This document shows, in pieces, positions 24,281 through 47,374 of a DNA stretch of 64,000 nucleotides. Every line of letters begins with the position of its first letter. Position 1 is the stretch's first letter. This DNA is from an uncultured Bacteroidales bacterium. Its GTDB lineage: Bacteria; Bacteroidota; Bacteroidia; Bacteroidales; UBA932. A program made the translations under genes and the position numbers. The stretch is taken from contig ONEF01000002.1 of the NCBI GenBank assembly GCA_900316795.1, forward strand, positions 62,001-126,000. The letters are read 5' to 3'. The notes under the pieces are model-generated. The model saw nothing but the letters and a program-made list of their open reading frames with translations. It had not been told where the DNA came from and did not search any database.

Positions 24281-25276
24281 ATGACTGTTCCGATTCTCCT
24301 TATCATAGCTGCCCTCATACTTGTTGCAGGAGGAGCACATTTTCTTGTTGAAGGTTCTTCAAGGATAGCCTCCAAGTTCGGCATTTCCGACATGGTCATC
24401 GGCATGACCATCGTTGCCATAGGAACATCCATGCCAGAACTTGTCACCAGCATCCTAGGTGCTTTGAAAGGGAGTGCCGGTATTGCTGTAGGAAACGTGG
24501 TCGGTTCCAATATCTGCAACATTCTCCTGATTGTGGGATTAAGCGCCCTGATCTATCCGCTGTCAGTATCAAAGGAGAACATAAACAGAGATATGCAGTT
24601 TGTGCTCCTTTCCACTATAGTGTTGTTGGTAATAGCTTTCGACTCACAGATAGACAGCCTTACCATTGACGACAACATGGCATCAAACTTCATATCCAGG
24701 AGCGACGGAATCATACTGATACTTTTCTTCATAATCTTCATGTTCTACTCAGTCATAAGTGCCAAGAGAAAAGAAGGGAACGAAAACCGGGCAAATACTG
24801 AAAGTTCAGAAGAACCGAAGAAGAAAGTCAACATCCCCCTTGCCCTTCTTATGGTAGCAGGAGGTCTTGGAGCTCTGATCTGGGGAGGTCAGCTGCTGGT
24901 TGACAACGCCATAATAGTTGCAAAGCACTATGGGGTAAGTGATGTTGTCATAGGTTCAACGATAGTGGCAATCGGAACCAGCCTCCCTGAACTGGCAGCC
25001 AGTGTTGTCGCTGCCATCAGAAAGAAAGTTGGAATGGCGTTGGGCAATATTGTCGGAAGCAACATCTTCAACGTTTTCCTAATACTTGGAGGCAGTGCGG
25101 TGATAACTCCTCTCCAACTCGAGAGTATAAACCATATCCATTTCGTATTCCTTCTCCTTGCTACCCTGCTGCTGCTTCTGGCTGCCAGAACCAGCATGAA
25201 GATCCGCAGGATAGAAGGATTCCTCCTGCTTGCTTTCTACGCTCTCTACATCACTGTAAACCTTTCTGTGAAATAG
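24281..25276 (+). CDS. Calcium/sodium antiporter, CaCA family (YrbG-like)
   Basis: A 331-residue inner membrane exchanger with ten or so hydrophobic helices in two inverted repeats. Each repeat has the two alpha motifs: AIGTSMPELVTS with GNVVGSNICNILLI in the first half, and AIGTSLPELAAS with GNIVGSNIFNVFLI in the second. The central charged loop (about 160-180, with EEPKKKVN) is short. The glutamates in both PEL motifs expected for Ca2+ binding are present. It probably exports Ca2+ in exchange for Na+. Confidence 0.92.
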   Translation: MTVPILLIIAALILVAGGAHFLVEGSSRIASKFGISDMVIGMTIVAIGTSMPELVTSILGALKGSAGIAVGNVVGSNICNILLIVGLSALIYPLSVSKENINRDMQFVLLSTIVLLVIAFDSQIDSLTIDDNMASNFISRSDGIILILFFIIFMFYSVISAKRKEGNENRANTESSEEPKKKVNIPLALLMVAGGLGALIWGGQLLVDNAIIVAKHYGVSDVVIGSTIVAIGTSLPELAASVVAAIRKKVGMALGNIVGSNIFNVFLILGGSAVITPLQLESINHIHFVFLLLATLLLLLAARTSMKIRRIEGFLLLAFYALYITVNLSVK

Positions 25277-25300
25277 TTTCCTGAGTTAGGTTTTAAATGT

Positions 25301-25356: not shown

Positions 25357-25833
25357 ATGATAATCAACAAACAGGTAGGAATGTTCCTGAACCTTGTCCA
25401 CAACCGGTTCAAGCAATATGTCACTGCCATTTTCGAAGAACAGGGCTTCAATATAACCCCTGAGCAGTTCCTTGTCATGGACGCTTTGTGGGACGAGGGA
25501 GTGCTGACGCAACAGCAGATAGCCAATTACATGCTCAAAGACAAGAACTCGGTCGTCAAACTTGTTGACGGGCTGGAAGAGAGGAAACTGGTCAAGCGGG
25601 CGAGCAATCCAAAGGACAGGCGGCAGAATCTGATCGAGGTGACAGAATATGCCATTGCCGTCAAAGACAAGATAACGGAACTGGCCATGGAAGCCGTTGA
25701 CCACATCATCAGCGGTATATCCAAAAGAGATCTACAGACTTTCATCAACGTGCTCAGCAAGATGGCAGAGAACATGAACAACGACATTGACCTGCTGGCG
25801 CTTGCGGCCAAATACCCCACAAAGAAACAATAG
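25357..25833 (+). CDS. MarR-family transcriptional regulator
   Basis: A 158-residue winged-helix regulator from ATG 25357; an upstream ATG at 25297 precedes the promoter box. The helix-turn-helix and wing are readable: EEGVLTQQQ-type recognition region (LTQQQIANYMLKDKNSVVKL) followed by RRASNPKDRR-like wing residues (RASNPKDRRQN). N- and C-terminal helices form the usual dimer interface. It is the first gene of the operon and ends two bases before hdrC1, so it most likely controls its own operon. The ligand is unknown; some MarR proteins sense thiols or oxidants, but no conserved sensing cysteine is visible here. Confidence 0.88.
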   Translation: MIINKQVGMFLNLVHNRFKQYVTAIFEEQGFNITPEQFLVMDALWDEGVLTQQQIANYMLKDKNSVVKLVDGLEERKLVKRASNPKDRRQNLIEVTEYAIAVKDKITELAMEAVDHIISGISKRDLQTFINVLSKMAENMNNDIDLLALAAKYPTKKQ

Positions 25834-25835
25834 CT

Positions 25836-26531
25836 ATGGGAAAACTGTATGACAGGCTGATGCAGGACTACAGGCTTAAGGAAGGTCTCAACGCCTGCAT
25901 AAACTGCGGCACTTGCACGGCGATCTGCCCTGCCGCGGAGTTCTACCGCTACGATCCCAGAAGGATCGTGGACATAGTCCAGCATCAGGATGACTCCCAG
26001 ATAGAAGAACTCCTCAAAAGCGATACCATTTGGTACTGCGGAGAATGTCTCAGTTGCGTGACCAGATGCCCCCGCAACAACAAGGCCGGCCTTATTATAA
26101 TGGCGCTCAGAAGTTTGTCCATCCAGACAGGCTTCTTCATGGAATCTGAAAAAGGCAGACAGATGTACCTCTTGTGCAAAGACCTCAACAGCAACATTCT
26201 CAACTATGGTTATTGTGTTTATCCAAGGACATTCAAATATGACGGGCACATGGAGGCCGGACTTGTCTGGGAATGGGTGGAGAAAAACATGGACGACGTT
26301 TATGACAGACTTGGTGCCAATCTCGACAAAGAAGGCCCGGGGGCAGTCAGAAAGATTCCGCAAAAAGACCTGGATGAACTTAAAAGGATCTACGATGTGA
26401 CCGGAGCTACAGAAATGCTTGAAAATGTCAAGAGAGCCGGACTGGAAAAAGCCAGGGAACTTGGACTTACCGAAGAGGAGTACTGCCAGAAGTTGTATTC
26501 TGAGTGCAGCCCCAAACATTTCAACCATTAG
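25836..26531 (+). CDS. HdrC-like iron-sulfur subunit (C1)
   Basis: A 231-residue soluble protein with two [4Fe-4S] motifs near the N-terminus: CINCGTCTAICP and, about 45 residues later, CGECLSCVTRCP. This is the heterodisulfide reductase subunit C arrangement. The C-terminal 130 residues are helical and extend beyond short HdrC proteins. It is the first structural gene of the operon, three bases before the HdrB-like gene, and would carry electrons between the flavin subunit and the HdrB-like subunit. Confidence 0.85.
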   Translation: MGKLYDRLMQDYRLKEGLNACINCGTCTAICPAAEFYRYDPRRIVDIVQHQDDSQIEELLKSDTIWYCGECLSCVTRCPRNNKAGLIIMALRSLSIQTGFFMESEKGRQMYLLCKDLNSNILNYGYCVYPRTFKYDGHMEAGLVWEWVEKNMDDVYDRLGANLDKEGPGAVRKIPQKDLDELKRIYDVTGATEMLENVKRAGLEKARELGLTEEEYCQKLYSECSPKHFNH

Positions 26532-26534
26532 GAT

Positions 26535-27599
26535 ATGATTTACGAAGGAAAAAAGAAAATCTGGGCAGATTACCAGAAAGAAATACCGGAAGACCACTAC
26601 TTCTATGTAAGAAGCTGCATCAGGCAGTCTTTCTTCCCTGCTTCCGAAGCCACCTTCCTGGATATAACAAGGAATAAACTTGGCAAGGATATCTTTGAAA
26701 CTGAGCATCATACTACTTGCGGAGGTATAGCCTACCATTCAGACACCATACCTCAGGAAACCGTTATGACCATCATAGCCAGGCAGTTTGCCCTTATGAA
26801 GAAATACGGGTACGAGAATTATGTCTGCTCCTGCATCACATCATTCGGCCTGTATTGCGAGACTCTGGAGACCTGGAGGGAATATCCTGAGCTCCAGCAG
26901 AAAATCGCCGAGAATCTCTGGAAAAGCTGCAAACTGGAATTTGCCAAGCCTAAATTCCTGGTACACGCCAGCGACCTCATCTTCAAATACAGGATGCAGA
27001 TAGCATCCAAGAGCAAGTTCAAGCTTGTCAACAAGAATACCGGAGAACCTCTGAGGGTGGTTGAACACATTGGCTGCCATTATTCAAAGATGTTCCCTTC
27101 CAAGGGAGTCGGAGGAGCCGAGTATCCTTATGTGCTTGTAGGTATGGTCGAAGCCTGGGGGGGCCAGATCATTGACTATCCGGAAAGAAGGCATTGCTGC
27201 GGATTCGGGTTCCGCCAATATCTCATCAAGGGTAACAGAGGATATTCAGTCTCCAACACCCACAAGAAGTTCGAAAGCATGGAACCTTTCAAACCCGACA
27301 TGATAATCACCAACTGCCCGGGTTGCCCGTACTTCCTCGACAGGTGGCAGTATGTCATCGCTGAGACTCAAGGGAAGACATACGGTGAAAACGGTCATGG
27401 GATTCCTGTGTTCACATACGAGGAAGTGGCTGGTCTGGTGATGGGATATGACCCTTGGGACCTTGGACTACAGACGCATCAAGTTAGCGTTGAGCCGCTG
27501 CTGGACAAAATCGGAATACCTTATGACCCGGCAAAGAAATATCTGGGAAGGAATGGCAAATATCTTGGGGAGCCCCAAAAACCTCATTGTCTAAAATAA
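26535..27599 (+). CDS. HdrB-like CCG-domain subunit (B1), N-terminal CCG degenerate
   Basis: A 354-residue protein of the heterodisulfide reductase subunit B / CCG family. The C-terminal CCG domain is complete: GCHYSK (about residue 180), RRHCCGFGF (about 220) and NCPGCPYF (about 258), the cysteine set that binds a noncubane [4Fe-4S] cluster. The N-terminal domain is altered: TTCGG replaces CCG and CSC replaces CxxC. Thus it probably carries one catalytic-type cluster, unlike methanogen HdrB, which has two. It sits between HdrC-like and HdrA-like genes. The thiol or disulfide substrate is unknown. Confidence 0.85.
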   Translation: MIYEGKKKIWADYQKEIPEDHYFYVRSCIRQSFFPASEATFLDITRNKLGKDIFETEHHTTCGGIAYHSDTIPQETVMTIIARQFALMKKYGYENYVCSCITSFGLYCETLETWREYPELQQKIAENLWKSCKLEFAKPKFLVHASDLIFKYRMQIASKSKFKLVNKNTGEPLRVVEHIGCHYSKMFPSKGVGGAEYPYVLVGMVEAWGGQIIDYPERRHCCGFGFRQYLIKGNRGYSVSNTHKKFESMEPFKPDMIITNCPGCPYFLDRWQYVIAETQGKTYGENGHGIPVFTYEEVAGLVMGYDPWDLGLQTHQVSVEPLLDKIGIPYDPAKKYLGRNGKYLGEPQKPHCLK

Positions 27600-27604
27600 G
27601 CCTT

Positions 27605-28624
27605 ATGAAGAAAAATATACTGATAATCGGAGGCGGGCCGGCCGGTATGGAGGCAGCAGCCAATCTGGACAGACTTGGTTACAATGTAATCCTCATAGAA
27701 AAAGACAAACAGTTGGGAGGTCACCTGGCCAAGTGGGACAGACTGTTCCCGGACGGAGTTTCCGCAAAAAAAACTTTGGACGCCCTCACTGCAGAGCTTT
27801 CCGGCGTCAAATGTTTTACTGAGACCAATATCCAGTCTATCAATGTGCTGGACAAGTCTTACAACGCTATCCTTTCCAACGGGATAACCGTATTGGCTGA
27901 CGCGGTCCTGATGGCCTCTGGATTTGACCTTTTCAAAGCCGAAAAGAAAGAAGAATACGGATACGGAATATATGATGGGGTAATGACAAATGCAGACCTT
28001 GAAAAAGCCTTCCGTGAAAAGACTCTCCCATCCAAGGCACCAAAGGCCATAGGGTTTGTCCATTGCGTTGGCTCCCGTGACGAGAAGGCCGGAAATCCTG
28101 CATGTTCCAAAGTCTGCTGCGCCACAGCTGTAAAACAAGCATGTGAAATCAAGGAGGTTTATCCAGATGCGGATGTTTACTGTTTCTATATGGACCTCAG
28201 GATGTTCGGACGCCACTATGAAGACCTGTATCTGAAAGCCCAGAAAGAATATGGAATCAGGTTCATTCGCGGAAGGGTTTCCGAAGTAGCTGAAACTATG
28301 GACAACAGGCTTTTGGTCAAGGCAGAAGATACATTGTCCAGCAAGCCGCTGAAAGTAACCTTGGATATGCTGGTGCTGATGGCAGGAATGAGACCGTCAG
28401 AAGCCGGAAGAAGTGTAGGCCGCCAGCTTAACCTCACAACAGAGGATGACGGATTCTTCTCATCCTCCGACAATATGCTGGCAATACAGAAGAGCAAGCT
28501 TCCAGGGTTCTTCTACGCAGGAGCCTGCACCGGAGCCAAAACCCTTCCGGATACGCTGCACGAAGCCCGCAGCGCAGCCCTGGAAATTGACAGGTACGTC
28601 AAAGATAATTTCAAGGAGCAATGA
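27605..28624 (+). CDS. Short HdrA-like FAD/iron-sulfur subunit
   Basis: A 339-residue flavoprotein from ATG 27605; an in-frame TTG at 27587 would overlap the upstream gene. The N-terminus is a Rossmann FAD site (IGGGPAGMEAA). The HdrA cluster motif is seen in HCVGSRDEKAG and PACSKVCC, then the family block RMFGRHYEDLY. The C-terminus has a second flavin-contact stretch (FFYAGACTGAKTLPDTLHEA). It lacks the extra ferredoxin and insert domains of methanogen HdrA and is in the size range of the short HdrA found in sHdr and Qmo-type systems. It overlaps the next gene by four bases (ATGA). Confidence 0.87.
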   Translation: MKKNILIIGGGPAGMEAAANLDRLGYNVILIEKDKQLGGHLAKWDRLFPDGVSAKKTLDALTAELSGVKCFTETNIQSINVLDKSYNAILSNGITVLADAVLMASGFDLFKAEKKEEYGYGIYDGVMTNADLEKAFREKTLPSKAPKAIGFVHCVGSRDEKAGNPACSKVCCATAVKQACEIKEVYPDADVYCFYMDLRMFGRHYEDLYLKAQKEYGIRFIRGRVSEVAETMDNRLLVKAEDTLSSKPLKVTLDMLVLMAGMRPSEAGRSVGRQLNLTTEDDGFFSSSDNMLAIQKSKLPGFFYAGACTGAKTLPDTLHEARSAALEIDRYVKDNFKEQ

Positions 28625-28947
28625 TAGATTTCGGTTTTACAGTAAGTCCAAGTTCCAGAATAAATCTGGACGAAGTTGACAAGAAATCTTTCGTAGCCTT
28701 GTCAAAGATTGAGCCTGACGTTGTCAAATGCATGGCTTGCGGAAGCTGCTCCGCCAGTTGCACTGTATCACAGTTCCAGCCGACCAGTGTCAGGAAAGCC
28801 ATACTTTCCCTTCAGAACGGGCAAATCAGCCAGGCTATGGATTTTCTCAAACACTGCATGTTGTGCGGCAAATGCACAATGGTCTGCCCAAGAGGCATTA
28901 ACACAAGGCACCTTATCATCTCAATCCAAAAAATCTACGGAAAATGA
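28621..28947 (+). CDS. Small HdrC-like ferredoxin (C2)
   Basis: A 108-residue protein with CMACGSCSASC and CMLCGKCTMVCP, two [4Fe-4S] motifs of HdrC type, and little else. The first motif ends SASCTVSQ, lacking the proline after the last cysteine. It overlaps both neighbours by four bases (ATGA), so HdrA, this subunit and the membrane subunit are expected in a fixed ratio. As a second HdrC-like protein it probably connects the flavin subunit to the membrane-bound subunit. Confidence 0.85.
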   Translation: MIDFGFTVSPSSRINLDEVDKKSFVALSKIEPDVVKCMACGSCSASCTVSQFQPTSVRKAILSLQNGQISQAMDFLKHCMLCGKCTMVCPRGINTRHLIISIQKIYGK

Positions 28948-30857
28948 CCAACATTCTGTCCGTCACACTGCAAGCAGTAACACCTGAAGGTATAATAGAC
29001 AGGTATCCAAATAGTTACAATCATTTCGTATTGCCGTTTGTCATTGGTATATCCTTTATACTGGTGTACTTGCTGATTGGTCTGGTCCGGGTACTCTATC
29101 ACCTGAGCGGTGAAGACAGGATCAAACTCCTGAAGTCTCTCTTCAACCCGAAGACAGCTCTGAAAAACCTCAAGGACATTTTCTGCGACTGCCTCCTTCA
29201 CACAAAGATATGGAAGAGAAAACCACTTTTGGGCTATATGCACTCGGCGATTGCTTTCGGATGGTTCATGCTGATAGTGCTAGGTCATCTGGAAGTTTAC
29301 ATCTTTGCTCCAAGACACCTTGAAGGAATATCTGAAGGCTCCCTTTACTACCCTATTTTCTACAGGTTCTTTATCTGGATAAACCCGGCACACGAAACCT
29401 TGAGAGGAACGGTGTTCTTCTTCCTGATGGACTTCTTTCTTCTGTATGTGCTGAGCGGCATAGCTCTGGCCATGTTCAAGAGAGTAAGGTCCATAGCCCT
29501 GGGAATGAGGCATACAACCAAACCGTCACTGGCAGACAGGGTTGCCCTTTACTCTCTTTGGGCAATTTTTCCTCTGAGGCTTTTAGCAGAAGGCTTTACA
29601 GCAGACCTCAGCGGAGGAAGTTTTCTGACCAAGCCTGTAAACTGGTTGTTCAAGGCATTCTTCGGCAATGAACTTAATTTCATGCCTACATGGTGGGCCT
29701 ATTCCATTTGCCTTGGCTTGTTCTTCCTTGCCATGCCTTTTTCCAGGTATATGCACATACTTACTGAACCGGTCCTGATATTGTTCCGCAACGCCGGCCT
29801 CAAAGTCAGAAAACCCCGCAAAGGTTTTGCGGAAGCTGAAATATACGCCTGCTCCAGTTGCGGCCTGTGCATAGACGCTTGTCCGATGAACACCCAAAAG
29901 AAGAACCTCAAATACTCTTCTGTCTATTTCATAAGATTTCTGAGAAGGCACAACAACAAGAAAATCAATGAAATCGCTGAGAAATGCCTGATGTGCGGCA
30001 AATGCGCGGCCTTATGCCCTGTCGGCGTTAATTCCCCGGACATAAGGAGAGTCCAGAGAGAAACCATCAACAATTCCGTAGGTTACGATTACTCTTACTT
30101 GAAAGATTACTCTGACAAAGCCGCTGCCGAGCTTTCAGACAAGCCTCGTAAATCAGGGAAGGTCCTTTATTTTGCCGGCTGCATGACTCATCTTACCCCA
30201 ATGATAATCAAGTCTGTGGAGAAAGTGCTGAAGGCTGCCGATGTGGAGTTCGAGTTCATGGACAAAGACAGCGGGATATGCTGCGGCCGCCCTCTGATGC
30301 TGGCCGGAAAGACAGAAGCCGCAAGGAAAACCATCGAGGCAAACAAGAAGATCATTGAACAGTCCGGGTGCAGCATCCTTCTGCTCTCCTGCCCTATCTG
30401 CCTGAAAGTTTTCAAAGAGGAATACAACCTAGAAAATATCGAGATACTGCATTATACACAATATATAGACAGGCTCGCCAAAGAAGGGAAACTCATTCTG
30501 GAAAAGAAAGAGGGCTCTTTGGTCTATCACGATCCTTGTGAACTCGGAAGAGGTTGCGGAATCTATGATGAACCAAGAAATGTACTCTCCGGCATCGGAG
30601 AACTTAAAAAGGCACAAAAGGAAAGAGATGAGAGCATCTGCTGCGGATACAGCCTTGGCAGTCTGACCCTGGATGAAAAGGACCGCTCCAAGATTGCAGA
30701 AAGCTCTGTGGCCAACCTCATGGCAAACGCACCTGACAAGATAATTACCGCGTGCCCGATGTGCTACAAGGCAATAAGAAGCAAGGCCGATGTGCCTGTC
30801 CTGGATTTCGCCGAGATAATATCTTCCAGCATATCCGGACTCAAGCAGAATTCTTGA
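28944..30857 (+). CDS. Membrane HdrE-HdrD fusion (cytochrome b-like plus CCG domains)
   Basis: A 637-residue fusion. The N-terminal half has about five hydrophobic helices (near residues 30-50, 95-115, 150-170, 200-220 and 250-270) of NarI/HdrE type with histidines suited to heme or quinone. Then come two [4Fe-4S] motifs (CSSCGLCIDACP about 305, CLMCGKCAALCPVG about 350) and two complete CCG domains (GCMTH, GICCGRP, SCPIC; then DPCELGRGC, ICCGYS, ACPMC). It should anchor the Hdr-like complex to the inner membrane and exchange electrons with menaquinone. Similar designs occur in HdrDE and DsrMK. Direction of electron flow is not evident. Confidence 0.86.
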   Translation: MTNILSVTLQAVTPEGIIDRYPNSYNHFVLPFVIGISFILVYLLIGLVRVLYHLSGEDRIKLLKSLFNPKTALKNLKDIFCDCLLHTKIWKRKPLLGYMHSAIAFGWFMLIVLGHLEVYIFAPRHLEGISEGSLYYPIFYRFFIWINPAHETLRGTVFFFLMDFFLLYVLSGIALAMFKRVRSIALGMRHTTKPSLADRVALYSLWAIFPLRLLAEGFTADLSGGSFLTKPVNWLFKAFFGNELNFMPTWWAYSICLGLFFLAMPFSRYMHILTEPVLILFRNAGLKVRKPRKGFAEAEIYACSSCGLCIDACPMNTQKKNLKYSSVYFIRFLRRHNNKKINEIAEKCLMCGKCAALCPVGVNSPDIRRVQRETINNSVGYDYSYLKDYSDKAAAELSDKPRKSGKVLYFAGCMTHLTPMIIKSVEKVLKAADVEFEFMDKDSGICCGRPLMLAGKTEAARKTIEANKKIIEQSGCSILLLSCPICLKVFKEEYNLENIEILHYTQYIDRLAKEGKLILEKKEGSLVYHDPCELGRGCGIYDEPRNVLSGIGELKKAQKERDESICCGYSLGSLTLDEKDRSKIAESSVANLMANAPDKIITACPMCYKAIRSKADVPVLDFAEIISSSISGLKQNS

Positions 30858-30861
30858 ATTG

Positions 30862-32172
30862 ATGACAATGAATAAAAACTATAAGAAAATGGAAATCCAA
30901 CCGACAAGCTACCATTTGCAAAGCTGCCTGAGCAAAAGGCAATTTGAGGACACAGGATGGCTTATGGCTGATCCTGAGGACAAAGCACCTTCCCTCATAA
31001 GGGCTGTCTATGAAAAGAAACAGATTGAATTCAAAGACAAGTCATACGGAATCTACCGGTTTGCAGACTGGCTTCCAATAAGCCGAATGCTGAAAGGTTC
31101 TTCAGCTCCCGTCACCTACAAGAGCAAAGCGCTGGCTGAGAAACTCGGACTGAGCAATCTCTATATAACATACAGTGGCTACTGGCCGGAGAAAGGTGTG
31201 ACGATGAACACATGCTCATTCAAGGAAACGGAAGCCTATTCAGTGTGCGGAAGACTTAAAGACACGGGCAGGATTCTTGTTGTAGCATCTGCCGGAAACA
31301 CTGCAAGGGCTTTTGCCAGAGTTTGTTCAGACAACAACATCCCGTTGGTGATCGCCATACCTGAAGACAATCTGAACGCATTGTGGTTCAAGGAGAAACT
31401 CAACAGCTGCGTTAAAGTTCTTTGTTCTCCTAAAGGAAGCGACTACTTTGACGCCATTGCCCTTGCTGCCAAACTCAACGCCTCGCCATTGTTCCTTGAA
31501 GAAGGCGGTGCCAAGAATGTAGCCAGAAGAGACGGCATGGGAACTACCGTCCTTTCCGCTGCTGAAGCAATAGGCAGAATTCCTGACGCATATTTCCAGG
31601 CTGTAGGAAGCGGCACAGGCACAATTGCGGCTTACGAGGCAAACCTGAGGCTTATTGAAGACGGAAGGTTCGGAAACAACATCATGAAACTGATTCCTTC
31701 ACAGAACGTACCTTTCACCCCGATGTATGATGCATGGAAGGCAGACAGCCGCAGCCTTCTTCCAATGGACGAAAACGAGGGCAGAATCAAGGCTCTGCAA
31801 ATAAAAGCCCCTGTACTCAGTAACCGCAAGCCGCCTTATTCCATAGCCGGCGGCCTGTATGATGTGCTCAAGGCATCAAACGGCAGTTTCCAGAAAGTGA
31901 CAAACGGAGAACTTACAGAAGCTTGTGACATGTTTGAGGAACTCGAGGGAGCGGATATTTACTCCGCAGCAGGAGTGGCACTTGTCAGCCTCATCAAAGC
32001 CCTCAAGGAAGGCCACGTTGCACCCGACGATACCATAATGCTGAACATCACCGGAGGCGGTGAAAAACGATTCAAGAAAGAGTTTGACTATATAAACGCC
32101 AAGGCAGACCTTGTCATGAGCCCGGAATGCAGCCCTATGGAATTGATAGAAAAGGTTACTGCCTTGTTCTAG
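30862..32172 (+). CDS. Probable cysteate synthase (PLP, threonine synthase-like)
   Basis: A 437-residue fold type II PLP enzyme starting at ATG 30862 (ATG 30868 is possible), four bases after the membrane subunit. From memory it matches methanogen cysteate synthase closely: FADWLPI, VTYKSKALAEKLGLSNLYI, YSGYWPEKG, TCSFKETEA (PLP lysine), VVASAGNTARAFA, AVGSGTGTIAAYEA (phosphate loop) and NITGGGEKRFK. Cysteate synthase makes L-cysteate from O-phospho-L-serine and sulfite; the product feeds coenzyme M in some archaea and sulfonolipids in some Bacteroidota. The archaeal N-terminal Cys pairs are not kept. Threonine synthase or diaminopropionate lyase are less likely alternatives. It is last in the Hdr-like operon. 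Confidence 0.83.
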   Translation: MTMNKNYKKMEIQPTSYHLQSCLSKRQFEDTGWLMADPEDKAPSLIRAVYEKKQIEFKDKSYGIYRFADWLPISRMLKGSSAPVTYKSKALAEKLGLSNLYITYSGYWPEKGVTMNTCSFKETEAYSVCGRLKDTGRILVVASAGNTARAFARVCSDNNIPLVIAIPEDNLNALWFKEKLNSCVKVLCSPKGSDYFDAIALAAKLNASPLFLEEGGAKNVARRDGMGTTVLSAAEAIGRIPDAYFQAVGSGTGTIAAYEANLRLIEDGRFGNNIMKLIPSQNVPFTPMYDAWKADSRSLLPMDENEGRIKALQIKAPVLSNRKPPYSIAGGLYDVLKASNGSFQKVTNGELTEACDMFEELEGADIYSAAGVALVSLIKALKEGHVAPDDTIMLNITGGGEKRFKKEFDYINAKADLVMSPECSPMELIEKVTALF

Positions 32173-32198: not shown

Positions 32199-32233
32199 GA
32201 AAACTCCCGTCCAAGGCGGGAGTTTTCGTTTTT
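32199..32233 (+). terminator. Bidirectional intrinsic terminator after the Hdr/cysteate synthase operon
   Basis: AAAACTCCCG pairs perfectly with CGGGAGTTTT around a seven-base loop and is followed by GTTTTT on the plus strand; the minus strand also ends in T-rich sequence. It closes the plus-strand operon and the convergent minus-strand small gene at 32250. Confidence 0.85.
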
Positions 32234-36406: not shown

Positions 36407-37414
36407 TTACTTCTTGGTAACCATCTTGGAGAGCTTTTCGGTGAGCATAGGGATAATCTTGTGAACGTCCCCTACTATACCTACATCAGCGACACCGAAG
36501 ATAGGAGCGAACTTGTCCTTGTTGATGGCGATGATGAAATCACTCTCTTCCATACCTGCAAGGTGCTGGATGGCACCGCTGATACCGCAAGCCATATAGA
36601 GGGCAGGACGGACTGTCTTACCTGTCTGGCCAACCTGAACCTCGTGAGGCATTACGCCGGCGTCAACCATAGCTCTTGAAGAGGAAACCTGGGCGCCGAT
36701 AACGTCAGCCAGAGCCTGAAGCTTGGCAAATCCCTCAGGATTACCTACTCCACGACCTCCTGAAACCAGGATCTTGGCCTCGGTAATATCTACCTTGCCC
36801 TTGTTTTCCTTAACGCACTCAACAAGCTTTACCTTGAACTTGGAAGCGTCGAACTGAGGAGCGAACACCTCAACTTCACCCTTGCGGTTCTCATCGCGGG
36901 TACCTTTCTGCATAACGCCAGGACGTACGGTTGACATCTGTGGCCTGTGCTCGGTACACATGATGGTTGCCATAAGGTTACCTCCGAATGCAGGACGGGT
37001 CATAAGGAGCTCTCTGTCTTCAGAAATGTCCAGAGCGGTGCAGTCTGCAGTCAGACCGGTTGCCAATCTGGAAGCCAGCCTTGGACCGAGGTCTCTTCCG
37101 ATAGTGGTTGCACCAAGGAGAACGATGCTTGGTTTGTATTTGTCAATGGCCTGGCTCATTGCCTGTGAGTACTGCTCGGTAAGATAGTGCTCGAGTTCAG
37201 GAGCATCCATCACGATAACCCTGTCGGCACCCCATGCTATGAGTTCCTTGGCATTTTCGGTATTCTTGTATCCAGGATAGAAAGCTACCACTTCCTCTCC
37301 CAGCTTGTCTGCAAGCACTCTTGCCTTTCCTAAAAGTTCGAGGGCTACAGACTGGATTTTTCCGTCTCTTTGCTCGGCGAATACATATACGCCTTTAAAG
37401 TCTGATTTGTTCAT
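36407..37414 (-). CDS. etfA: Electron transfer flavoprotein alpha subunit
   Basis: FAD-binding half of the flavoprotein that serves the butyryl-CoA dehydrogenase. 335 residues, with an N-terminal adenine-nucleotide-like domain and the C-terminal FAD domain blocks GGRGVG, SSRAMVDAG, QVGQTGKTVRPALYMACG and SGAIQHLAGM. It is the last gene of the lysine operon, 19 bases after etfB. With etfB and bcd it could form a bifurcating complex that reduces ferredoxin while forming butyryl-CoA, as known for clostridial Bcd/Etf; bifurcation cannot be proven from the sequence. Confidence 0.95.
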   Translation of the reverse strand: MNKSDFKGVYVFAEQRDGKIQSVALELLGKARVLADKLGEEVVAFYPGYKNTENAKELIAWGADRVIVMDAPELEHYLTEQYSQAMSQAIDKYKPSIVLLGATTIGRDLGPRLASRLATGLTADCTALDISEDRELLMTRPAFGGNLMATIMCTEHRPQMSTVRPGVMQKGTRDENRKGEVEVFAPQFDASKFKVKLVECVKENKGKVDITEAKILVSGGRGVGNPEGFAKLQALADVIGAQVSSSRAMVDAGVMPHEVQVGQTGKTVRPALYMACGISGAIQHLAGMEESDFIIAINKDKFAPIFGVADVGIVGDVHKIIPMLTEKLSKMVTKK

Positions 37415-37433
37415 TTCTTTCAGTATTAGGCAA

Positions 37434-38216
37434 TTAGATAATAAATTTCTCTTTCATCTTGGCGATGATAACATCAACAGCCTGCTCCGGTTCCAGCTCG
37501 TAAACCTGGCCTGCAGCCTTGGTCTGCTTAGGGAATGCCTGCTTAACCTTGGTTGGAGAACCTTTGAGCCCGAGTTTGGAAGGATCAAGATCCAGATTGG
37601 CCTCTGTCCAGATTTCTACCTGGCGATCGAAAGCGTCAACGATACCGCCTACGTTCATGTAACGGGCCTTGTAGCCGGAAGCAAGAACGGTGAATACTGC
37701 AGGACCTTCAACATCCAGAATCTCGTAACCGTCTTCGGTTTCCTTCTTTACCCTGAAGTTGTTTTCTCCCTTATACTCGCAGTCAACAACATAAGACACC
37801 TGTGGAAGGTGGAGATGTTCTGCCATCTCAGGACCTACCTGGGCGGTATCTCCATCAATAGCCTGACGGCCGGTTATGATGAGGTCGTAAGGGATAGCCC
37901 TCAGAGCACCTGCCAAAGCGTTGGAAGTTGCAAGGGTGTCAGCACCTGCGAAAGCACGGCTGGTCAGGAGGATAGCCCTGTCCGCTCCCATAGCGAAAGC
38001 TTCTCTCAGAACCAGGTCGGCCTGTGGAGGACCCATCGTGATGACCGTTACGTTTGCACCGCATTTCTCTTTAAGCTGGAGAGCCAGCTCAAGACCACCC
38101 TTGTCGTCTGGGTTCATGATGGAAGGAACACCTTCTCTTATCAGCGTGTTCTTTACCGGATCAATTTTTACAACGGTTGTATCCGGAACTTGTTTTACAC
38201 AAACTACTATATTCAT
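37434..38216 (-). CDS. etfB: Electron transfer flavoprotein beta subunit
   Basis: 260-residue partner of EtfA, with typical blocks MNIVVCVKQVPDT, MNPDDKGGLELALQLKE, ADLVLREAFAMGADRAILL and GRQAIDGDTAQVGPE. The last block (DGDTAQVGPE) is the one that in bifurcating EtfB proteins contacts the second FAD. Located between bcd and etfA, 12 and 19 bases apart, in the order bcd-etfB-etfA seen in butyrate producers. Confidence 0.95.
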   Translation of the reverse strand: MNIVVCVKQVPDTTVVKIDPVKNTLIREGVPSIMNPDDKGGLELALQLKEKCGANVTVITMGPPQADLVLREAFAMGADRAILLTSRAFAGADTLATSNALAGALRAIPYDLIITGRQAIDGDTAQVGPEMAEHLHLPQVSYVVDCEYKGENNFRVKKETEDGYEILDVEGPAVFTVLASGYKARYMNVGGIVDAFDRQVEIWTEANLDLDPSKLGLKGSPTKVKQAFPKQTKAAGQVYELEPEQAVDVIIAKMKEKFII

Positions 38217-38228
38217 AATCTGACTTTT

Positions 38229-39371
38229 TTACTTCTTGAACAATTTTCCGGCAATAACCATTCTCTGAACTTCTGAGGTACCCTCGTAGATTTCAGTAAT
38301 CTTGGCGTCTCTCATCATTCTCTCGACAGGATATTCCCTTGTGTAACCATAACCTCCATGGAACTGTACAGCCTTGGTTGTCATCTCCATTGCTGTTTCT
38401 GCAGCAAAGAGTTTTGCCATGGCTGCGTCTGCGCTGAACGGCATTCCATGGTCTTTCTTCCAGGCAGCTGCCCTTACCAGGTATCTTGCGGCCTCGATCT
38501 TGGTCTGAAGGTCTGCGAGCTGGAACTGGGTGTTCTGGAACTGGGAGAGGCTCTTGCCGAACTGCTTTCTTTCCTTGCAGTACTTGACGGTCTCGTCCAT
38601 GGCGCCCTGAGCGATACCCAGAGCCTGTGCGGCGATACCTATACGGCCACCGTCCAGAGTCTTCATCGCAACTGCAAAGCCACCACCGAGTTTGCCGAGC
38701 ATATTAGCTTTTGGAACGCGGCAGTTTTCGAATATGAGCTCGCAGGTAGCACTTCCCCTGATACCCATCTTGTGCTCCTTCTTCCCGATTGAGAAACCAG
38801 GGGTGGAAGCTTCAACGATGAAGGTGGTGATGCCCTTGTTACCCTTTGACTTGTCTGTCATTGTGGCAATAACGTAAACATCAGCCTCACCTGCGTTGGT
38901 GATGAATATCTTGGTTCCGTTGAGGATGTAGTCGTCTCCGTCCTCAACTGCCATTGTCTGCTGTGCGGAAGCGTCTGTTCCGGCGTTAGGCTCGGTAAGA
39001 CCGAAAGCGCCAATCCACTCGCCGCTGGCAAGTTTAGGCAGATACTTCTGCTTCTGCTCTTCAGTTCCGTTGTCAAGGATAGCATCCTCGCAAAGTGAAG
39101 TGTGGGCTGAAACAATAACGCCAGTAGTAGCACAAACTCTTGAAAGCTCCTCTATGGCAACGGTGTACATAACGTGGTCTCCGCCGGCTCCACCGTAAAC
39201 CTTTGGTGTAGGGATACCCATTACACCAAGTTTTCCGAGCTTCTTTACGTTCTCAGTAGGAAATTTTTCCTCCTCATCAACTTCTGCAGCAATAGGTTTC
39301 ACCTCTTTTTCGGCGAACTCCCTTATCATCTGCTGAAACAGTTTCTGGGATTTAGTAAGTTCGAAATCCAT
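38229..39371 (-). CDS. bcd: Butyryl-CoA dehydrogenase (acyl-CoA dehydrogenase)
   Basis: FAD enzyme reducing crotonyl-CoA to butyryl-CoA with EtfAB, the electron sink of the pathway. 380 residues, full length. Blocks: GLTEPNAGTDAS, IFITNAGEADVYV, GIRGSATCEL, the C-terminal GGYGYTREYPVERMMRDAK and the catalytic glutamate region EIYEGTSEVQ. Twelve bases separate it from both atoA and etfB. Confidence 0.94.
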   Translation of the reverse strand: MDFELTKSQKLFQQMIREFAEKEVKPIAAEVDEEEKFPTENVKKLGKLGVMGIPTPKVYGGAGGDHVMYTVAIEELSRVCATTGVIVSAHTSLCEDAILDNGTEEQKQKYLPKLASGEWIGAFGLTEPNAGTDASAQQTMAVEDGDDYILNGTKIFITNAGEADVYVIATMTDKSKGNKGITTFIVEASTPGFSIGKKEHKMGIRGSATCELIFENCRVPKANMLGKLGGGFAVAMKTLDGGRIGIAAQALGIAQGAMDETVKYCKERKQFGKSLSQFQNTQFQLADLQTKIEAARYLVRAAAWKKDHGMPFSADAAMAKLFAAETAMEMTTKAVQFHGGYGYTREYPVERMMRDAKITEIYEGTSEVQRMVIAGKLFKK

Positions 39372-39383
39372 ATCTTAAAAATT

Positions 39384-40049
39384 CTAAAGTTCTATCTTTT
39401 TCAAATCAGGGGCAATAATAAGTGTAGCCTCAGTGGCTGCCTGAACCTGCTCAACAGTGAACTCAGGGTTGATTTCGCTGAGAACGATTCCTTCAGGGGT
39501 AATGTTCATAACACCCATTTCGGTGATGATCATGTTCACCTGACCAGCTGCTGTAAGAGGCAAGCGGCACTTCTTCAGGATCTTAGGGTTGCCCTTTGCG
39601 GTGTGCTCCATAGTGAGGATAACCTTGTTGGCTCCCACCAGAAGGTCCATTGCGCCACCCATTCCAGGAGCTTTCTTTCCAGGGATGATCCAGTTTGCAA
39701 GGTCTCCCTTCTCGTCAACTTCAAGAGCGCCGAGGAAAGTAACATTGACATGACCGCCACGAACCATAGCGAAGCTGGTAGCAGAGTCAAAAGAAGCGGC
39801 ACCGGGCTCGTGTGAGATGTATCCGCCGCCGGCATCAATCCAGTGAGGATCCCTCTGGCCCCCGGAAAGTGCAGGATCTGCAGCCATTCCAAGGCAACCG
39901 TTCTCTGACTGGATAGTAACAGTCACTCCCTCAGGTAGATAGTTAGGAATAAGGGTTGGAAGTCCGATACCCAGATTCACAACGTCGCCGTCCTTTACCT
40001 CAAGGGCAGCACGCTTTGCAATAAACTCTCTAATTTGCTGTTTATCCAT
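39384..40049 (-). CDS. atoA: Butyryl-CoA:acetoacetate CoA-transferase beta subunit
   Basis: Catalytic subunit of a class I CoA transferase, 221 residues, with the SENG motif holding the CoA-accepting glutamate near residue 49, then GGGYISHEPGAASFDS and KAPGMGGAMDLL. In this pathway it returns CoA from butyryl-CoA to acetoacetate, releasing butyrate. Its partner, the alpha subunit, is nine genes upstream at 48604 (first gene of the operon), an unusual separation of subunits. Confidence 0.92.
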   Translation of the reverse strand: MDKQQIREFIAKRAALEVKDGDVVNLGIGLPTLIPNYLPEGVTVTIQSENGCLGMAADPALSGGQRDPHWIDAGGGYISHEPGAASFDSATSFAMVRGGHVNVTFLGALEVDEKGDLANWIIPGKKAPGMGGAMDLLVGANKVILTMEHTAKGNPKILKKCRLPLTAAGQVNMIITEMGVMNITPEGIVLSEINPEFTVEQVQAATEATLIIAPDLKKIEL

Positions 40050-40079
40050 AATAGTGATATTTAATGATTGATATTGTGT

Positions 40080-40868
40080 TTACTTGTTGTGTCTCTTTAC
40101 AAATTCCTCAGCGATGAAGCTTGCCACATCATCCGCATAGGTGTTGGTGCCGAAGCCGGCATCATAACCAAGCTCCTTGGCAAGCTCGTGGCTTATACGG
40201 GCCCCTCCGCACACGACAATCATCTTGTCTCTAAGACCTTCAGCATCCATAAGCTCTATGAGATTGGTAAGGTTCTGGATATGAACATCTTTCTGAGTAA
40301 CCGTCTGGCTCACCAGCAGAGCGTCTGCCTTGAGCTCGATAGCCTTTGCAAGGAATTCTTCGTTAGGCACCTGGCTGCCGAGGTTATAAGCCTCGATCAT
40401 CCTGTACCTCTCCAGACCGTAGTGTCCGGCATAACCTTTCATGTTCATTATGGCATCGATTCCCACGGTATGGGCATCGGTTCCGGTGCTGGCGCCTACA
40501 ACTACAAGAGGACGGCCTATCTTTTCCTGGATGAAGTCGTCACAAGCCTCCATGCTCATTGTCTTGGATTCAACCTTAGGAACATAGATGTCGGCATAAT
40601 TCACTGTCATTGTGCTGCTTCCATAGCAATTGAAGAAAGTGAACCCAGGAGTGAGTTCCTGCGAGAACACTACCAGAGGATTCTCAAAACCCATCTTCTT
40701 GAGAAGCTGCTTTGCTGCTTCTATAGCTTCCGGACCGGCAGGGACAGGGAGCGTGAAGCTGAGCTGCACCTTTCCGTCATTCATCGTGTCGCCGTAAGGC
40801 TTTACTTTTTTCAGGTCAAGAGTCTTGTCGTAATTCTTGGCCTCCATTGAATACAGACCTTCACTCAT
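40080..40868 (-). CDS. kamE: Lysine 5,6-aminomutase beta subunit (B12-binding)
   Basis: Adenosylcobalamin- and PLP-binding subunit that, with KamD, shifts the terminal amino group of beta-lysine to give 3,5-diaminohexanoate. 262 residues. The B12 motif DxHxxG is at D131-H133-G136 (TGTDAHTVGIDAI) and Lys144 in MNMKG matches the PLP-binding lysine known in the clostridial enzyme. It lies two bases after kamD. Confidence 0.96.
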   Translation of the reverse strand: MSEGLYSMEAKNYDKTLDLKKVKPYGDTMNDGKVQLSFTLPVPAGPEAIEAAKQLLKKMGFENPLVVFSQELTPGFTFFNCYGSSTMTVNYADIYVPKVESKTMSMEACDDFIQEKIGRPLVVVGASTGTDAHTVGIDAIMNMKGYAGHYGLERYRMIEAYNLGSQVPNEEFLAKAIELKADALLVSQTVTQKDVHIQNLTNLIELMDAEGLRDKMIVVCGGARISHELAKELGYDAGFGTNTYADDVASFIAEEFVKRHNK

Positions 40869-40870
40869 CT

Positions 40871-42430
40871 TTATTTCCTCCCTTTCATAAGTTCAATAAA
40901 CGGATTCATGTAATTGGCACCCTTTTCGGTTACGCCGTCAAGTCCCTTGCCACCGTTCTTAGGCCTCTTTACATCGCCGAACTTACCCTGTTCCAGCGTG
41001 TTGAAAAGACCTTCGGAAGTCATTTCCTGCAGCAGGTTGATGGCATTGTCAAGAACTTCCTTGGCCCTTGAGCGGATTATGCCGCCTTCCTTGAATTCAA
41101 CTTCCTCTCCGATGTCGTGAAGATTGTTGAATATGTAGTTGGCGTTCTCAATTGAAAGGAAACGGTCGCTCATGAACGGGGTGTGGATTGCCTCGGTAGG
41201 CATACCCAGAAGCTGAAGGCCCTGGTGTGTCCAGATACCCACTATGTTGAACAGAGCATCCTGGATGTGGCCTCTGAATATATTTCCTGTCATGAATTTT
41301 GTAGGTGGCATATACTTAAGCGGAGCGTTAGGGAAAATCTCCCTTGTCATCTGTGCCTGGGCCAGTTCAAGCAGGAATCCGTTCTTGTGCATAGGATCCA
41401 TCTCAAAAGCGTGGCCCAGACCCATCTGCTCTTCAGGAAGACCGGCGAAAAGAGCCAGCTGCTCATTGATAAGGTCTGAAGCCAGAACAGTGTGGGCAGC
41501 CTCAATCGCGTCTGCCGTTGTAAGGTAGTTGTCCTCTCCTGTATTGATAATTACGCCTGCAAAGCCGTTGATTATCCTTGAGAAGTACTGGTCAATGAGC
41601 GTGCGCTGCATGTTGATGTCGCGGAAGAGGATTCCGTAAAGGGCATCGTTGAGCATTACATCCAGTCCTTCCAATGCACCCATAATTGCAATTTCAGGCA
41701 TGCAAAGTCCTGAGCAATAATTGCAAAGACGGATGTAGCGGTGGAGTTCCTCCCCTACCTCGTCAAGAGCCTTCCTCATTATGCGGAAGTTCTCCTGAGT
41801 GGCGAATGTACCTCCGAATCCTTCTGTGGTGGCCCCGTAAGGAACATAGTCCAGAAGGCTCTGGCCGGTCGTACGGATCACGGCTATGATGTCTGCCCCT
41901 TGCCTTGCTGCAGCCTGGGCCTGGACTACATCTTCATATATGTTTCCGGTAGCCACAATCACGTAAATGTAAGGACGGGCACGGTCCTCGCCGTACTCAG
42001 CCACGTATTTCTCTCTGCGAAGCCTGTGATTGCGGATCCTTTCTATGGTAGCGTCTATAACCGGCTGAACAGCGGCCTGGAGCTTTACAGGGTCCGTAAC
42101 TTTGGCTTCCTTTGTGATGTCAAAACCCTCGTTTGCAATTTTTTCAGCAATCTGCTGCGGAGAAAGACCTGTGCTTATCATCGCGTTTGCAATGTAGAAC
42201 ATCACACCCTGTGAAAGCACTCCTTTCTCCTTGAGCGAATCTACCAGCACGTTAGGAAGCGGGACATTGCTTTCGTCCACGCCGTCAATACCCAATGCAC
42301 GGGCTATAGTCCTTTCCGTGGCAACGGTAGTATAGCGCTCCACAAAAGCCTGCACCTCTATCGCAACCTTCTCTGCCAAGGATTTCGCGAGGCGGACTTT
42401 TTCAAAATCTAAACCTACTTTACTCTGCAT
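40871..42430 (-). CDS. kamD: Lysine 5,6-aminomutase alpha subunit
   Basis: 519-residue TIM-barrel subunit of the B12-dependent aminomutase, full length. Typical stretches include RTTGQSLLDYVPYGATTEGFGG, RLCNYCSGLCMPEIA and GLGHAFEMDP. It directly precedes kamE, with only two bases between them, so the subunits are coupled. Together they act on beta-lysine made by KamA. Confidence 0.96.
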   Translation of the reverse strand: MQSKVGLDFEKVRLAKSLAEKVAIEVQAFVERYTTVATERTIARALGIDGVDESNVPLPNVLVDSLKEKGVLSQGVMFYIANAMISTGLSPQQIAEKIANEGFDITKEAKVTDPVKLQAAVQPVIDATIERIRNHRLRREKYVAEYGEDRARPYIYVIVATGNIYEDVVQAQAAARQGADIIAVIRTTGQSLLDYVPYGATTEGFGGTFATQENFRIMRKALDEVGEELHRYIRLCNYCSGLCMPEIAIMGALEGLDVMLNDALYGILFRDINMQRTLIDQYFSRIINGFAGVIINTGEDNYLTTADAIEAAHTVLASDLINEQLALFAGLPEEQMGLGHAFEMDPMHKNGFLLELAQAQMTREIFPNAPLKYMPPTKFMTGNIFRGHIQDALFNIVGIWTHQGLQLLGMPTEAIHTPFMSDRFLSIENANYIFNNLHDIGEEVEFKEGGIIRSRAKEVLDNAINLLQEMTSEGLFNTLEQGKFGDVKRPKNGGKGLDGVTEKGANYMNPFIELMKGRK

Positions 42431-42468
42431 ATCAGTTAGTTTGTTGTGAAGTACTTATTATTGTTATA

Positions 42469-43875
42469 TTATCTGTTGTCTTCTTCTGACAGGATCTTCT
42501 CCGCCTCATCGAGCCACACCGGATCAATGTCCAGGCTCCGGGCAACATTTATGGCCTCGTGAGGAATCTCACCTTCAACCGTCTCAATTAGAGAATAATC
42601 CATCTTTCCTGCTGAAAGCCCCTTCACTTTCAATCTCCTGAAGAAATCTCCGGGAACATTGTAGTGGGTAGTCATCAGCACCGATATCTTCTTGTCTTTC
42701 AGTATGTCAAGCAAAGCCCTCACCAGAGCCGTCCCTTCAATCGGGTTGGTCGTCCTGGCAGGCTCATCTATCAGGGCGAGCATCCTTGAGCCTGTGCGCA
42801 TCCCCTTCAGCACATTGTCAATGGCCTTGACCTCACCGGCAAAAGAACTCAAGCCTGAAGACAGGTCCTGGTCATCGCCGATGCATACTCTTATGTCTTC
42901 CTTGATGTCTATCTTGGCAGACTCCGCAGCCACACCGAAACCGAACTGGAAAAGCAGCTGGTTGAGTGCGGCCATCTTCAGCACCACGCTCTTTCCGCCC
43001 ATGTTGGCTCCGATTATGGTAACGCTTTCCAGGGAGAAACTAAGGTCCACCGGCTGGAACTGTTTTTTCTTTCCACCCATAGAAGCTTGGCTCTCATATA
43101 GATGCACAACATACGGATGGAACATACCCTTGTACACCGTCCGGGAGTCATCAGAAACCTCAGGGATGCAAAGCCCCATCACCTTCATCTGAAGGCACTT
43201 GGCAAGGAGAATGTCAAGATCTCCCATTGCATCTATGGCCTGCCTTATCTCAGCGATATGGTTTTTCAGCAGGTGTGAAAGATTCTCCCTGATATCCCTT
43301 TCAAGAAGTCTTTCTTTCTCTATCAGTTCAAGGAGCCGGTCGGAAGTCACAGACAAGTCAGGAGACAGCCCCTGGAGTTTCTTTATGTCTGCCCTGATCC
43401 TTCCAAGTTCCTTGGAGTAAATGTCATACACATAAAAGCTCTCGATTCTCATCCCCTCCGGATCCAGTATGGAAACAACCTTTTCCATATCCGGTATCTC
43501 AACGCCTTCCAGGGAGAGAGCCTTAACCCCTTCTCTGACATGGCCGGCAAGCAGCCCCACGTACTTTATCTCAAACAGGTCCACGTCATCAAGCACCACA
43601 TCCCGCTGAAGCCTGTCAAGCGTCCCTGTTATGTCTCTAAGGCACATAAGCCTGTGCTTGAGAGCGGCAAGAGACGACGAAACCTGCGGAGAAGGATTGA
43701 AGTAGAGAATCCTGAAGCATCTTTCCAGGGTCTTGTAGGTCTTTTCTACTTCTTCCCTTGTCTGCAACATAGGAGTATTCAGCAGACGGCTCCTGCCGCA
43801 GGCAGACTGCAGCTGAAGTTCATCAAACATGAACCTAATTCCGCACGGTATGTCCAGACACTCTCTAAATAACAT
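42469..43875 (-). CDS. kamC: Lysine 5,6-aminomutase reactivase ATPase, MutS-like (KamC)
   Basis: A 468-residue protein with a MutS-type ATPase domain at its C-terminal half: P-loop GANMGGKSVVLK, Walker B region LALIDEPARTTNP and MTTHY. It lacks the MutS mismatch-recognition and clamp domains. In lysine-fermentation clusters this MutS-like protein is KamC, proposed to act with KamB in reactivating the B12-inactivated aminomutase, so I do not call it DNA repair. It lies between kamB (two-base gap) and kamD (38 bases). Confidence 0.88.
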   Translation of the reverse strand: MLFRECLDIPCGIRFMFDELQLQSACGRSRLLNTPMLQTREEVEKTYKTLERCFRILYFNPSPQVSSSLAALKHRLMCLRDITGTLDRLQRDVVLDDVDLFEIKYVGLLAGHVREGVKALSLEGVEIPDMEKVVSILDPEGMRIESFYVYDIYSKELGRIRADIKKLQGLSPDLSVTSDRLLELIEKERLLERDIRENLSHLLKNHIAEIRQAIDAMGDLDILLAKCLQMKVMGLCIPEVSDDSRTVYKGMFHPYVVHLYESQASMGGKKKQFQPVDLSFSLESVTIIGANMGGKSVVLKMAALNQLLFQFGFGVAAESAKIDIKEDIRVCIGDDQDLSSGLSSFAGEVKAIDNVLKGMRTGSRMLALIDEPARTTNPIEGTALVRALLDILKDKKISVLMTTHYNVPGDFFRRLKVKGLSAGKMDYSLIETVEGEIPHEAINVARSLDIDPVWLDEAEKILSEEDNR

Positions 43876-43877
43876 GA

Positions 43878-44894: not shown

Positions 44895-44903
44895 TGTGCA
44901 GCG

Positions 44904-46250: not shown

Positions 46251-46260
46251 AATATCAGTT

Positions 46261-47334: not shown

Positions 47335-47374
47335 AAAAATATTGTTTTTATAAATTAATATTCAACGATTCTGT

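Follow-up and report, generated by a model that had tools for sequence, protein, structure and literature searches.

A heterodisulfide reductase-like gene cluster ending with a cysteate synthase gene in an uncultured Bacteroidales bacterium, and its possible link to sulfonolipid synthesis

A compact array of seven genes has been analysed in a 64,000-nucleotide stretch of contig ONEF01000002.1 (positions 62,001 to 126,000; assembly GCA_900316795.1) from an uncultured Bacteroidales bacterium. The whole stretch is referred to below as the window, and coordinates are those of the window. The genes are located head to tail on the plus strand at 25357-32172, and encode a MarR-type regulator, five proteins related to heterodisulfide reductase (Hdr) subunits and a cysteate synthase, the enzyme forming cysteate from phosphoserine and sulfite. 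The comparison of many genomes, detailed below, suggests that, in genomes without the usual sulfate route, sulfite is supplied by the Hdr-like complex. The features of the locus are the following.

25357-25833, plus strand: MarR-family regulator (Pfam MarR, 43.9 bits)
25836-26531, plus strand: HdrC1, ferredoxin-type subunit with two [4Fe-4S] clusters (HdrC models below cut-offs)
26535-27599, plus strand: HdrB1, proposed catalytic subunit (HdrB model 133 bits, below cut-off; PDB HdrB 9sfi/5odc)
27605-28624, plus strand: short HdrA flavoprotein (end-to-end match to PDB 6tjr, 192.8 bits)
28621-28947, plus strand: HdrC2, small subunit with two [4Fe-4S] clusters (Fer4_8, 39.9 bits)
28944-30857, plus strand: HdrED, an HdrE-HdrD fusion (NarI-like cytochrome b part, two [4Fe-4S] clusters, two complete CCG domains)
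30862-32172, plus strand: cysteate synthase (TIGR03844, 461.8 bits)
32199-32227, plus strand: terminator-like hairpin

Spacing is minimal all along the array, with gaps of 2, 3 and 5 bp followed by two 4-bp overlaps and by a last gap of 4 bp. The hairpin closing the array, a consensus match only, features 13 pairs and is followed by GTTTTT. The gene identities, the tight order and the single terminator reported in a preliminary description of this DNA are all confirmed, and the seven genes are probably co-transcribed. The MarR gene has an alternative ATG start, also open, at 25297, and 42 of 83 related loci have a MarR match no more than 300 bp from HdrC1. The host genome is a 2.32-Mb draft in 27 contigs, 92.75% complete, and all absences mentioned throughout are relative to draft genomes. 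Most of the named genomes closest to it are assemblies from rumen and gut denominated 'Bacteroidales' or 'Bacteroidia', on which its placement in the order is based.

Eight cluster-type cysteines are invariant in HdrC1 (158 sequences), as are eight cysteines in HdrC2 (146 sequences), and profile models reveal a weak similarity of both proteins to QmoC. In HdrB1, cysteines C28, C62, C100, C181, C221, C222, C261 and C264 are invariant in 163 sequences; the C-terminal CCG site is intact, and the N-terminal site is down to three cysteines. HdrA has one [4Fe-4S]-type cysteine set (C154, C167, C171, C172), invariant in 160 sequences, lacks ferredoxin domains and is aligned over positions 3-327 to 6tjr, which we take to be sHdrA. 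HdrED carries two complete CCG sites, and shares with EtfD (PDB 9ojn) a common overall fold over 565 residues at 21% identity. The NarI-like cytochrome b part of this protein bears out the membrane component proposed earlier. Outside the order, HdrC1-B1-A are 41-48% identical to the products of a Picosynechococcus plasmid cluster, HdrC1 scoring 48%.

The product of the last gene scores 461.8 bits against the NCBIfam model cysteate_syn (TIGR03844, cut-off 324.9) vs 60 bits against the best threonine synthase model. Similarly, the PDB entry scoring highest is 9k3c, 'Cysteate synthase', at 558 bits, threonine synthase reaching 55. A threonine synthase is ruled out by both comparisons, and the gene is, by these scores, a true cysteate synthase gene, as already surmised. 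The use of cysteate for sulfonolipids, also surmised as a possibility, is supported by an acyltransferase found on contig C5 (L166). It scores 569 bits to 7u7h, presumably SulA of Alistipes finegoldii, 525 to 28eh, 'Cysteate-C-fatty acyltransferase', and 213 to serine palmitoyltransferase. It is followed by a gene encoding a short-chain dehydrogenase/reductase (SDR), 38% identical to the SDR found beside the hdr genes of another family. Both genes lie outside the operon, elsewhere in the host genome. With synthase, acyltransferase and SDR reductase all found, a sulfonolipid gene set is present in this genome.

None of the usual enzymes of sulfite metabolism searched for was found. No reductase of adenosine 5'-phosphosulfate (APS) or 3'-phosphoadenosine 5'-phosphosulfate (PAPS) was detected in the host genome with TIGR02055 at E<=1e-12, no sulfite reductase domain PF01077, and no AprA at E<=1e-40. 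On the latter result an AprAB/Qmo partner was discarded for the host genome. There is likewise no sign of the lipoate-binding protein LbpA in this genome, because its single GcvH is accompanied by GcvP and was therefore set aside as a candidate; no lipoate-binding gene is found among the genes of the operon. The preliminary description had seen no LbpA, aprAB or dsrAB in the window.

The distribution of these genes has been monitored in 295 genomes of the order, denoted by G numbers. HdrB1 (E<=1e-20) was found in 92, the acyltransferase (E<=1e-110) in 208, and the APS/PAPS reductase (TIGR02055, E<=1e-12) in 184 genomes. Synthase-type genes were grouped in two classes. Canonical synthases, above the TIGR03844 cut-off, are encoded by 80 genomes. 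PALP2, found in 55 genomes, is a pyridoxal-phosphate enzyme with a cysteine-rich N-terminal stretch, matching the same model at 84-144 bits, below cut-off; both the grouping and its lower limit were set by us. Synthase fragments below cut-off in G110 and G282 were counted in neither class. Judged from gene context alone, PALP2 is perhaps a second, unannotated kind of cysteate synthase.

HdrB1 and the acyltransferase occur together, the latter being present in 85 of 92 HdrB1 carriers vs 123 of 203 other genomes (p 4e-9). The association depends on the reductase, as seen by a split made after the predicted test described below. In the 111 genomes lacking the reductase, the acyltransferase is found in 30/32 HdrB1 carriers vs 16/79 others (p 3e-13); in the 184 genomes having it, the figures are 55/60 vs 107/124 (p 0.34). 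When one genome per family was drawn (59 families), the reductase-less association gave a median p of 2e-5, the family codes of about 35 genomes being inferred from list numbering. According to a prediction recorded before testing, the reductase would be present in sulfonolipid genomes that lack Hdr. Among the 123 genomes with acyltransferase and either synthase, the reductase is missing in 24 of 45 HdrB1 carriers vs 8 of 78 others (p 3e-7), and one-per-family draws (58-59 families) gave median p values of 0.0015 to 0.005. With canonical synthases only, it is missing in 15/31 vs 6/45 (p 0.0014). Reductase or HdrB1 are present in 192 of the 208 acyltransferase genomes, and in 24 of the 87 others. 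The same picture was obtained with genomes in which HdrA was seen or unchecked (minus G012, G054, G063, G090 and G242), and removal of three genomes (G001, G120, G218) with only HdrB1 and HdrA found in the stretch read gave a one-per-family median p of 0.005. The idea of sulfite supply by an Hdr complex, put forward in the preliminary description, is favoured by these comparisons, sulfite being the plausible product.

Gene contexts in other families point in the same direction. In G108 and G041 the acyltransferase gene is followed by PALP2, HdrC1, B1, A, C2 and ED, and in G041 also by an SDR gene. In G081 and G185, members of one genus, acyltransferase, PALP2 and SDR genes precede hdr genes arranged in a different order, and in G141 the acyltransferase gene comes after HdrED. 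Loci of this type are present in 5 of the 85 genomes hosting both HdrB1 and acyltransferase (G012, G063 and G071, included in the 85, have not been read for context), and belong to four families; in three of these a synthase-like gene is present as well.

Elsewhere, the place of the hdr genes is taken by genes of the sulfate route. The genes for PALP2, a CysH-type PAPS reductase and the acyltransferase adjoin one another in G145, G240 and G069; in G085 two genes intervene. G056 groups the genes for PALP2, a DASS-like transporter, a protein of APS reductase type and the acyltransferase. G062, G104, G167 and G288 host a run of genes encoding an APS reductase-type protein, CysD, CysN, a DASS-like transporter and CysQ, ending at PALP2 and having the acyltransferase at the opposite end (Cys genes were named by profile in G167, by similarity in the remaining genomes). 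Of 55 PALP2 loci, 36 have been read: 10 feature a CysH- or APS-type reductase, 4 feature Hdr, none features both and 22 neither, figures to be read considering that 16 of the 36 were picked for known co-location of PALP2 with acyltransferase, reductase or Hdr, and that some contigs are short. PALP2 was also seen with CysH, CysDN, CysQ, the DASS-like transporter and the acyltransferase in part of loci L305-L316, L318-L337 and L074-L077. A divergent CysH-type PAPS reductase, 32-35% identical to the common type, lies beside or between PALP2 and acyltransferase genes in L312, L313, L314 and L315, and looks as if dedicated to sulfonolipid synthesis.

The organization of the module was analysed in 100 stretches, 99 with an HdrB1 match and one (L079) placed on a synthase. 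HdrB1 matches in G071, and short pieces in G063, G012 and G064, fall outside this context reading. All five module genes are found in 79 of the 99 HdrB1 stretches. HdrA is missing in 14, and another 6 are partial, including three with HdrB1 and HdrA alone. A synthase gene directly follows HdrED in 27 of 73 judged loci, window included (84 loci are in the tree, 11 of them unjudged), and the adjacency is therefore not fortuitous. In the 26 other adjacent cases the two genes are separated by no more than about 100 bp, and the module tree requires 8 changes in adjacency. For named relatives (80 loci, of which 77 are in the tree), 24 of 68 judged loci have the synthase after HdrED. Among 44 genomes of named relatives, 40 have a synthase above cut-off somewhere, at least 5 have it adjacent to hdr, and 3 have a match to APS/PAPS reductase, one above cut-off.

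The set of subunits recalls known systems. C1-B1-A-C2-B2 is the gene order of sHdr clusters. sHdr systems include sHdrA, sHdrC1, a proposed catalytic sHdrB1 and C2, along with B2 or, in its stead, a fused B3 (PMC11582611); their association with LbpA is described as 'inevitably' present (PMC6067878). Like the module, the system of Hyphomicrobium denitrificans (PMC6067878, PMC11582611) has C1, B1, A and C2 together with another subunit of HdrB/D type. The gene order is shared too, and the HdrA of the module, short and free of ferredoxin domains, matches 6tjr end to end. Differences are that LbpA was looked for without success, that the second B subunit carries a cytochrome b-like membrane part, and that the genes sit with those for lipid-sulfonate synthesis. 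It has not been filed as an sHdr-LbpA system because LbpA was not found, though the subunit set is shared, and may nonetheless work like one. The parallel drawn in the preliminary description is supported for the gene set, but with no LbpA found this is not a textbook sHdr-LbpA system.

Other relatives are more distant. The ETF (electron-transfer flavoprotein):menaquinone oxidoreductase EtfD/EMO (9ojn) similarly fuses NarI-like cytochrome b, Fe-S and CCG domains, but HdrED is encoded in an HdrABC-type operon and not with etfAB. HdrB1, the HdrA core and the CCG domains are homologous to methanogen HdrABC (5odc) and HdrDE; in contrast to these, HdrA is devoid of ferredoxin domains and HdrB1 has an incomplete N-terminal CCG site. 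To our knowledge, bacteria of this kind have no coenzyme M or coenzyme B. QmoABC is Hdr-derived and quinone-linked, and the HdrC proteins are weakly similar to QmoC; the subunit make-up differs, and the Qmo partner AprA, found in 19 of the 295 genomes, was not found in the host genome. The capnine/sulfobacin pathway employs cysteate synthase, CFAT/SulA/CapB and KCR/CapC (PMC9304779, PMC11211663); a synthase, an acyltransferase and an SDR are all present here, the difference being that the synthase belongs to an Hdr operon. The word 'sulfite' is absent from the available text of both papers, and the source of sulfite is treated neither there nor in the available text of PMC12927429. Titles and abstract openings, with subscription papers mostly outside, provided no link of Hdr with sulfonolipid, cysteate or Bacteroidales.

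On these grounds the five hdr genes may encode a membrane-anchored, LbpA-less, sHdr-like complex oxidising reduced sulfur to sulfite with menaquinone for biosynthesis, a proposal to which we give even chances. A reduced sulfur atom, either sulfide or a protein or thiol persulfide, would be oxidised at the noncubane cluster of HdrB1, and electrons would flow from HdrB1 through HdrC1, the flavoprotein HdrA, HdrC2 and HdrED to menaquinone. The product would be sulfite, that cysteate synthase, made from the shared transcript, would join to phosphoserine; acyltransferase and short-chain reductase, encoded elsewhere, would convert cysteate to a capnine-type sulfonolipid. The Hdr complex would hold the place that sulfate activation and APS/PAPS reductase have in other Bacteroidales. 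The broader proposal, that anaerobic gut Bacteroidales oxidise sulfur at the level of sulfide for biosynthesis, by an LbpA-independent, menaquinone-linked Hdr complex with a built-in EtfD-type anchor that makes sulfite for membrane sulfonolipids and replaces sulfate activation and PAPS reductase in several lineages, is tentative, its chances falling a little short of even.

Many observations weigh against this interpretation. In 46 of 73 judged loci no cysteate synthase gene adjoins the hdr cluster, and HdrB1 and canonical synthase are only weakly associated (33/92 vs 47/203, p 0.03). A strict hdr-synthase coupling is ruled out, because HdrB1 is common in the order and usually not beside a synthase. 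Close relatives with an hdr cluster devoid of the synthase would, by the preliminary description, refute its reading; this applies in part, at those 46 loci, although the enzyme is encoded somewhere in the genomes of 40 of 44 named relatives, as said. Neither recognised synthase type is found in 44 of the 92 HdrB1 genomes, 40 of which have the acyltransferase, and in acyltransferase genomes lacking a recognised synthase Hdr is unrelated to the reductase (p 0.77). Over all 295 genomes the two are similarly unrelated (p 0.52), and the reductase is present also in 60 of the 92 HdrB1 genomes. Eight genomes with acyltransferase and synthase have neither reductase nor HdrB1, and G282, which has the acyltransferase and lacks both, would be a ninth. 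With canonical synthases only, the one-per-family median p is 0.10, not significant. Within-family contrasts between reductase and Hdr are balanced, families f18, f48, f72 and f115 being for and f4, f20, f58 and f116 against, and shared ancestry has been handled only by one-per-family draws, without an unrelated-gene control. PALP2 is closer to threonine synthase by sequence, and the 20 PALP2 loci not picked for context feature a reductase (CysH) once and Hdr never. Gene context, reductase-dependent co-occurrence and resemblance to sHdr and EtfD still tie the module to sulfonolipid making.

HdrED could equally serve an ETF, as EtfAB-like genes are found 4 kb away in the window. They belong to a lysine-fermentation cluster (36407-48208, minus strand) encoding lysine 5,6-aminomutase alpha and beta, KamB, KDD and KCE, along with a lysine 2,3-aminomutase-type radical SAM protein, a CoA-transferase subunit and a MutS-like protein; its EtfA-, EtfB- and acyl-CoA dehydrogenase-like genes all score below NCBIfam cut-offs. 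This EtfAB could be a rival partner of HdrED. In such a reading the module would be a general redox complex, in which HdrED is an ETF:menaquinone oxidoreductase of EtfD/EMO type, the Hdr subunits link electrons from flavoproteins or thiols to menaquinone, and the synthase is a passenger. We deem this unlikely. EtfAB-like genes of this type are found in only 2 of 180 loci read, both from near relatives, and an ETF beside the module as a general feature was discarded; moreover, it would be left unexplained why acyltransferase genes accompany the module in four further families, and why the association of Hdr with acyltransferase hinges on a missing APS/PAPS reductase.

A neutral capture, by which similarly regulated genes came together in one operon and co-occurrence reflects lineages losing many genes together, appears quite improbable. 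The 8 changes in synthase adjacency and the balanced within-family contrasts would fit it, and the genomes with neither acyltransferase nor reductase could represent reduced lineages living with a host, but one-per-family resampling is still significant and acyltransferase neighbourhoods recur in four families. Least probable is the reductive direction, in which menaquinol or ferredoxin would drive the reduction of a disulfide, a persulfide or sulfite, and the complex would keep sulfite in balance or detoxify it next to the synthase. This fits the homology to heterodisulfide reductases and the two complete CCG sites of HdrED, but not an HdrA without the ferredoxin domains of full-length HdrA, nor a host genome in which searches for two kinds of sulfite-forming enzyme yielded neither, so that sulfite in need of removal may be scarce.

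Sulfonolipids of gut Bacteroidales are studied for their effects on host inflammation. Should the sulfite-forming role of the Hdr complex be true, a respiratory-type enzyme would turn reduced gut sulfur into a membrane lipid, sHdr-like chemistry would reach beyond sulfur-respiring organisms and would not require LbpA, and a large set of Bacteroidales genes annotated as 'heterodisulfide reductase' would gain a testable role.

Additional observations concern the surroundings of the module. HdrB1 is found without HdrA, mostly with HdrC1, in L081, L082, L230, L231, L237, L238, L244, L247, L251, L253, L254, L256, L264 and L270. Many of these loci cluster with genes for MrpORP-like ATPases and radical SAM proteins, and also with NifX-like, CGGC-domain and pyridoxal-phosphate sulfur-amino-acid lyase genes, recognised by eye. 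A NarXL-like two-component pair adjoins HdrC1, or is within two genes of it, in L078, L202, L203, L240, L261, L267, L272, L276, L279 and L280, and no MarR match was seen in these ten loci. The recurrent neighbour pair k1-k0 had been taken for methylenetetrahydrofolate reductase, an assignment discarded when a NarXL-like sensor and regulator were recognised on annotating one representative of each. Other annotated recurrent neighbours are of housekeeping type (FtsH, adenylosuccinate lyase, an MsbA-like ABC protein) or come from the HdrC1-B1-only class. In G126, a reduced 1.5-Mb genome of the same family as the host, neither HdrB1 nor cysteate synthase, acyltransferase or APS/PAPS reductase was detected with the thresholds applied. 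The plasmid cluster of Picosynechococcus PCC 7003 (L303, NZ_CP016476.1) features HdrC1-B1-A-C2-B2 followed by a gene for a weakly SQR-like oxidoreductase, to which no match was found near Bacteroidales modules among the loci compared. In the window, the hdr cluster is immediately preceded by a calcium/sodium antiporter gene (24281-25276), and likewise one adjoins the acyltransferase-PALP2-hdr cluster of another family (L075, 13148-14074).

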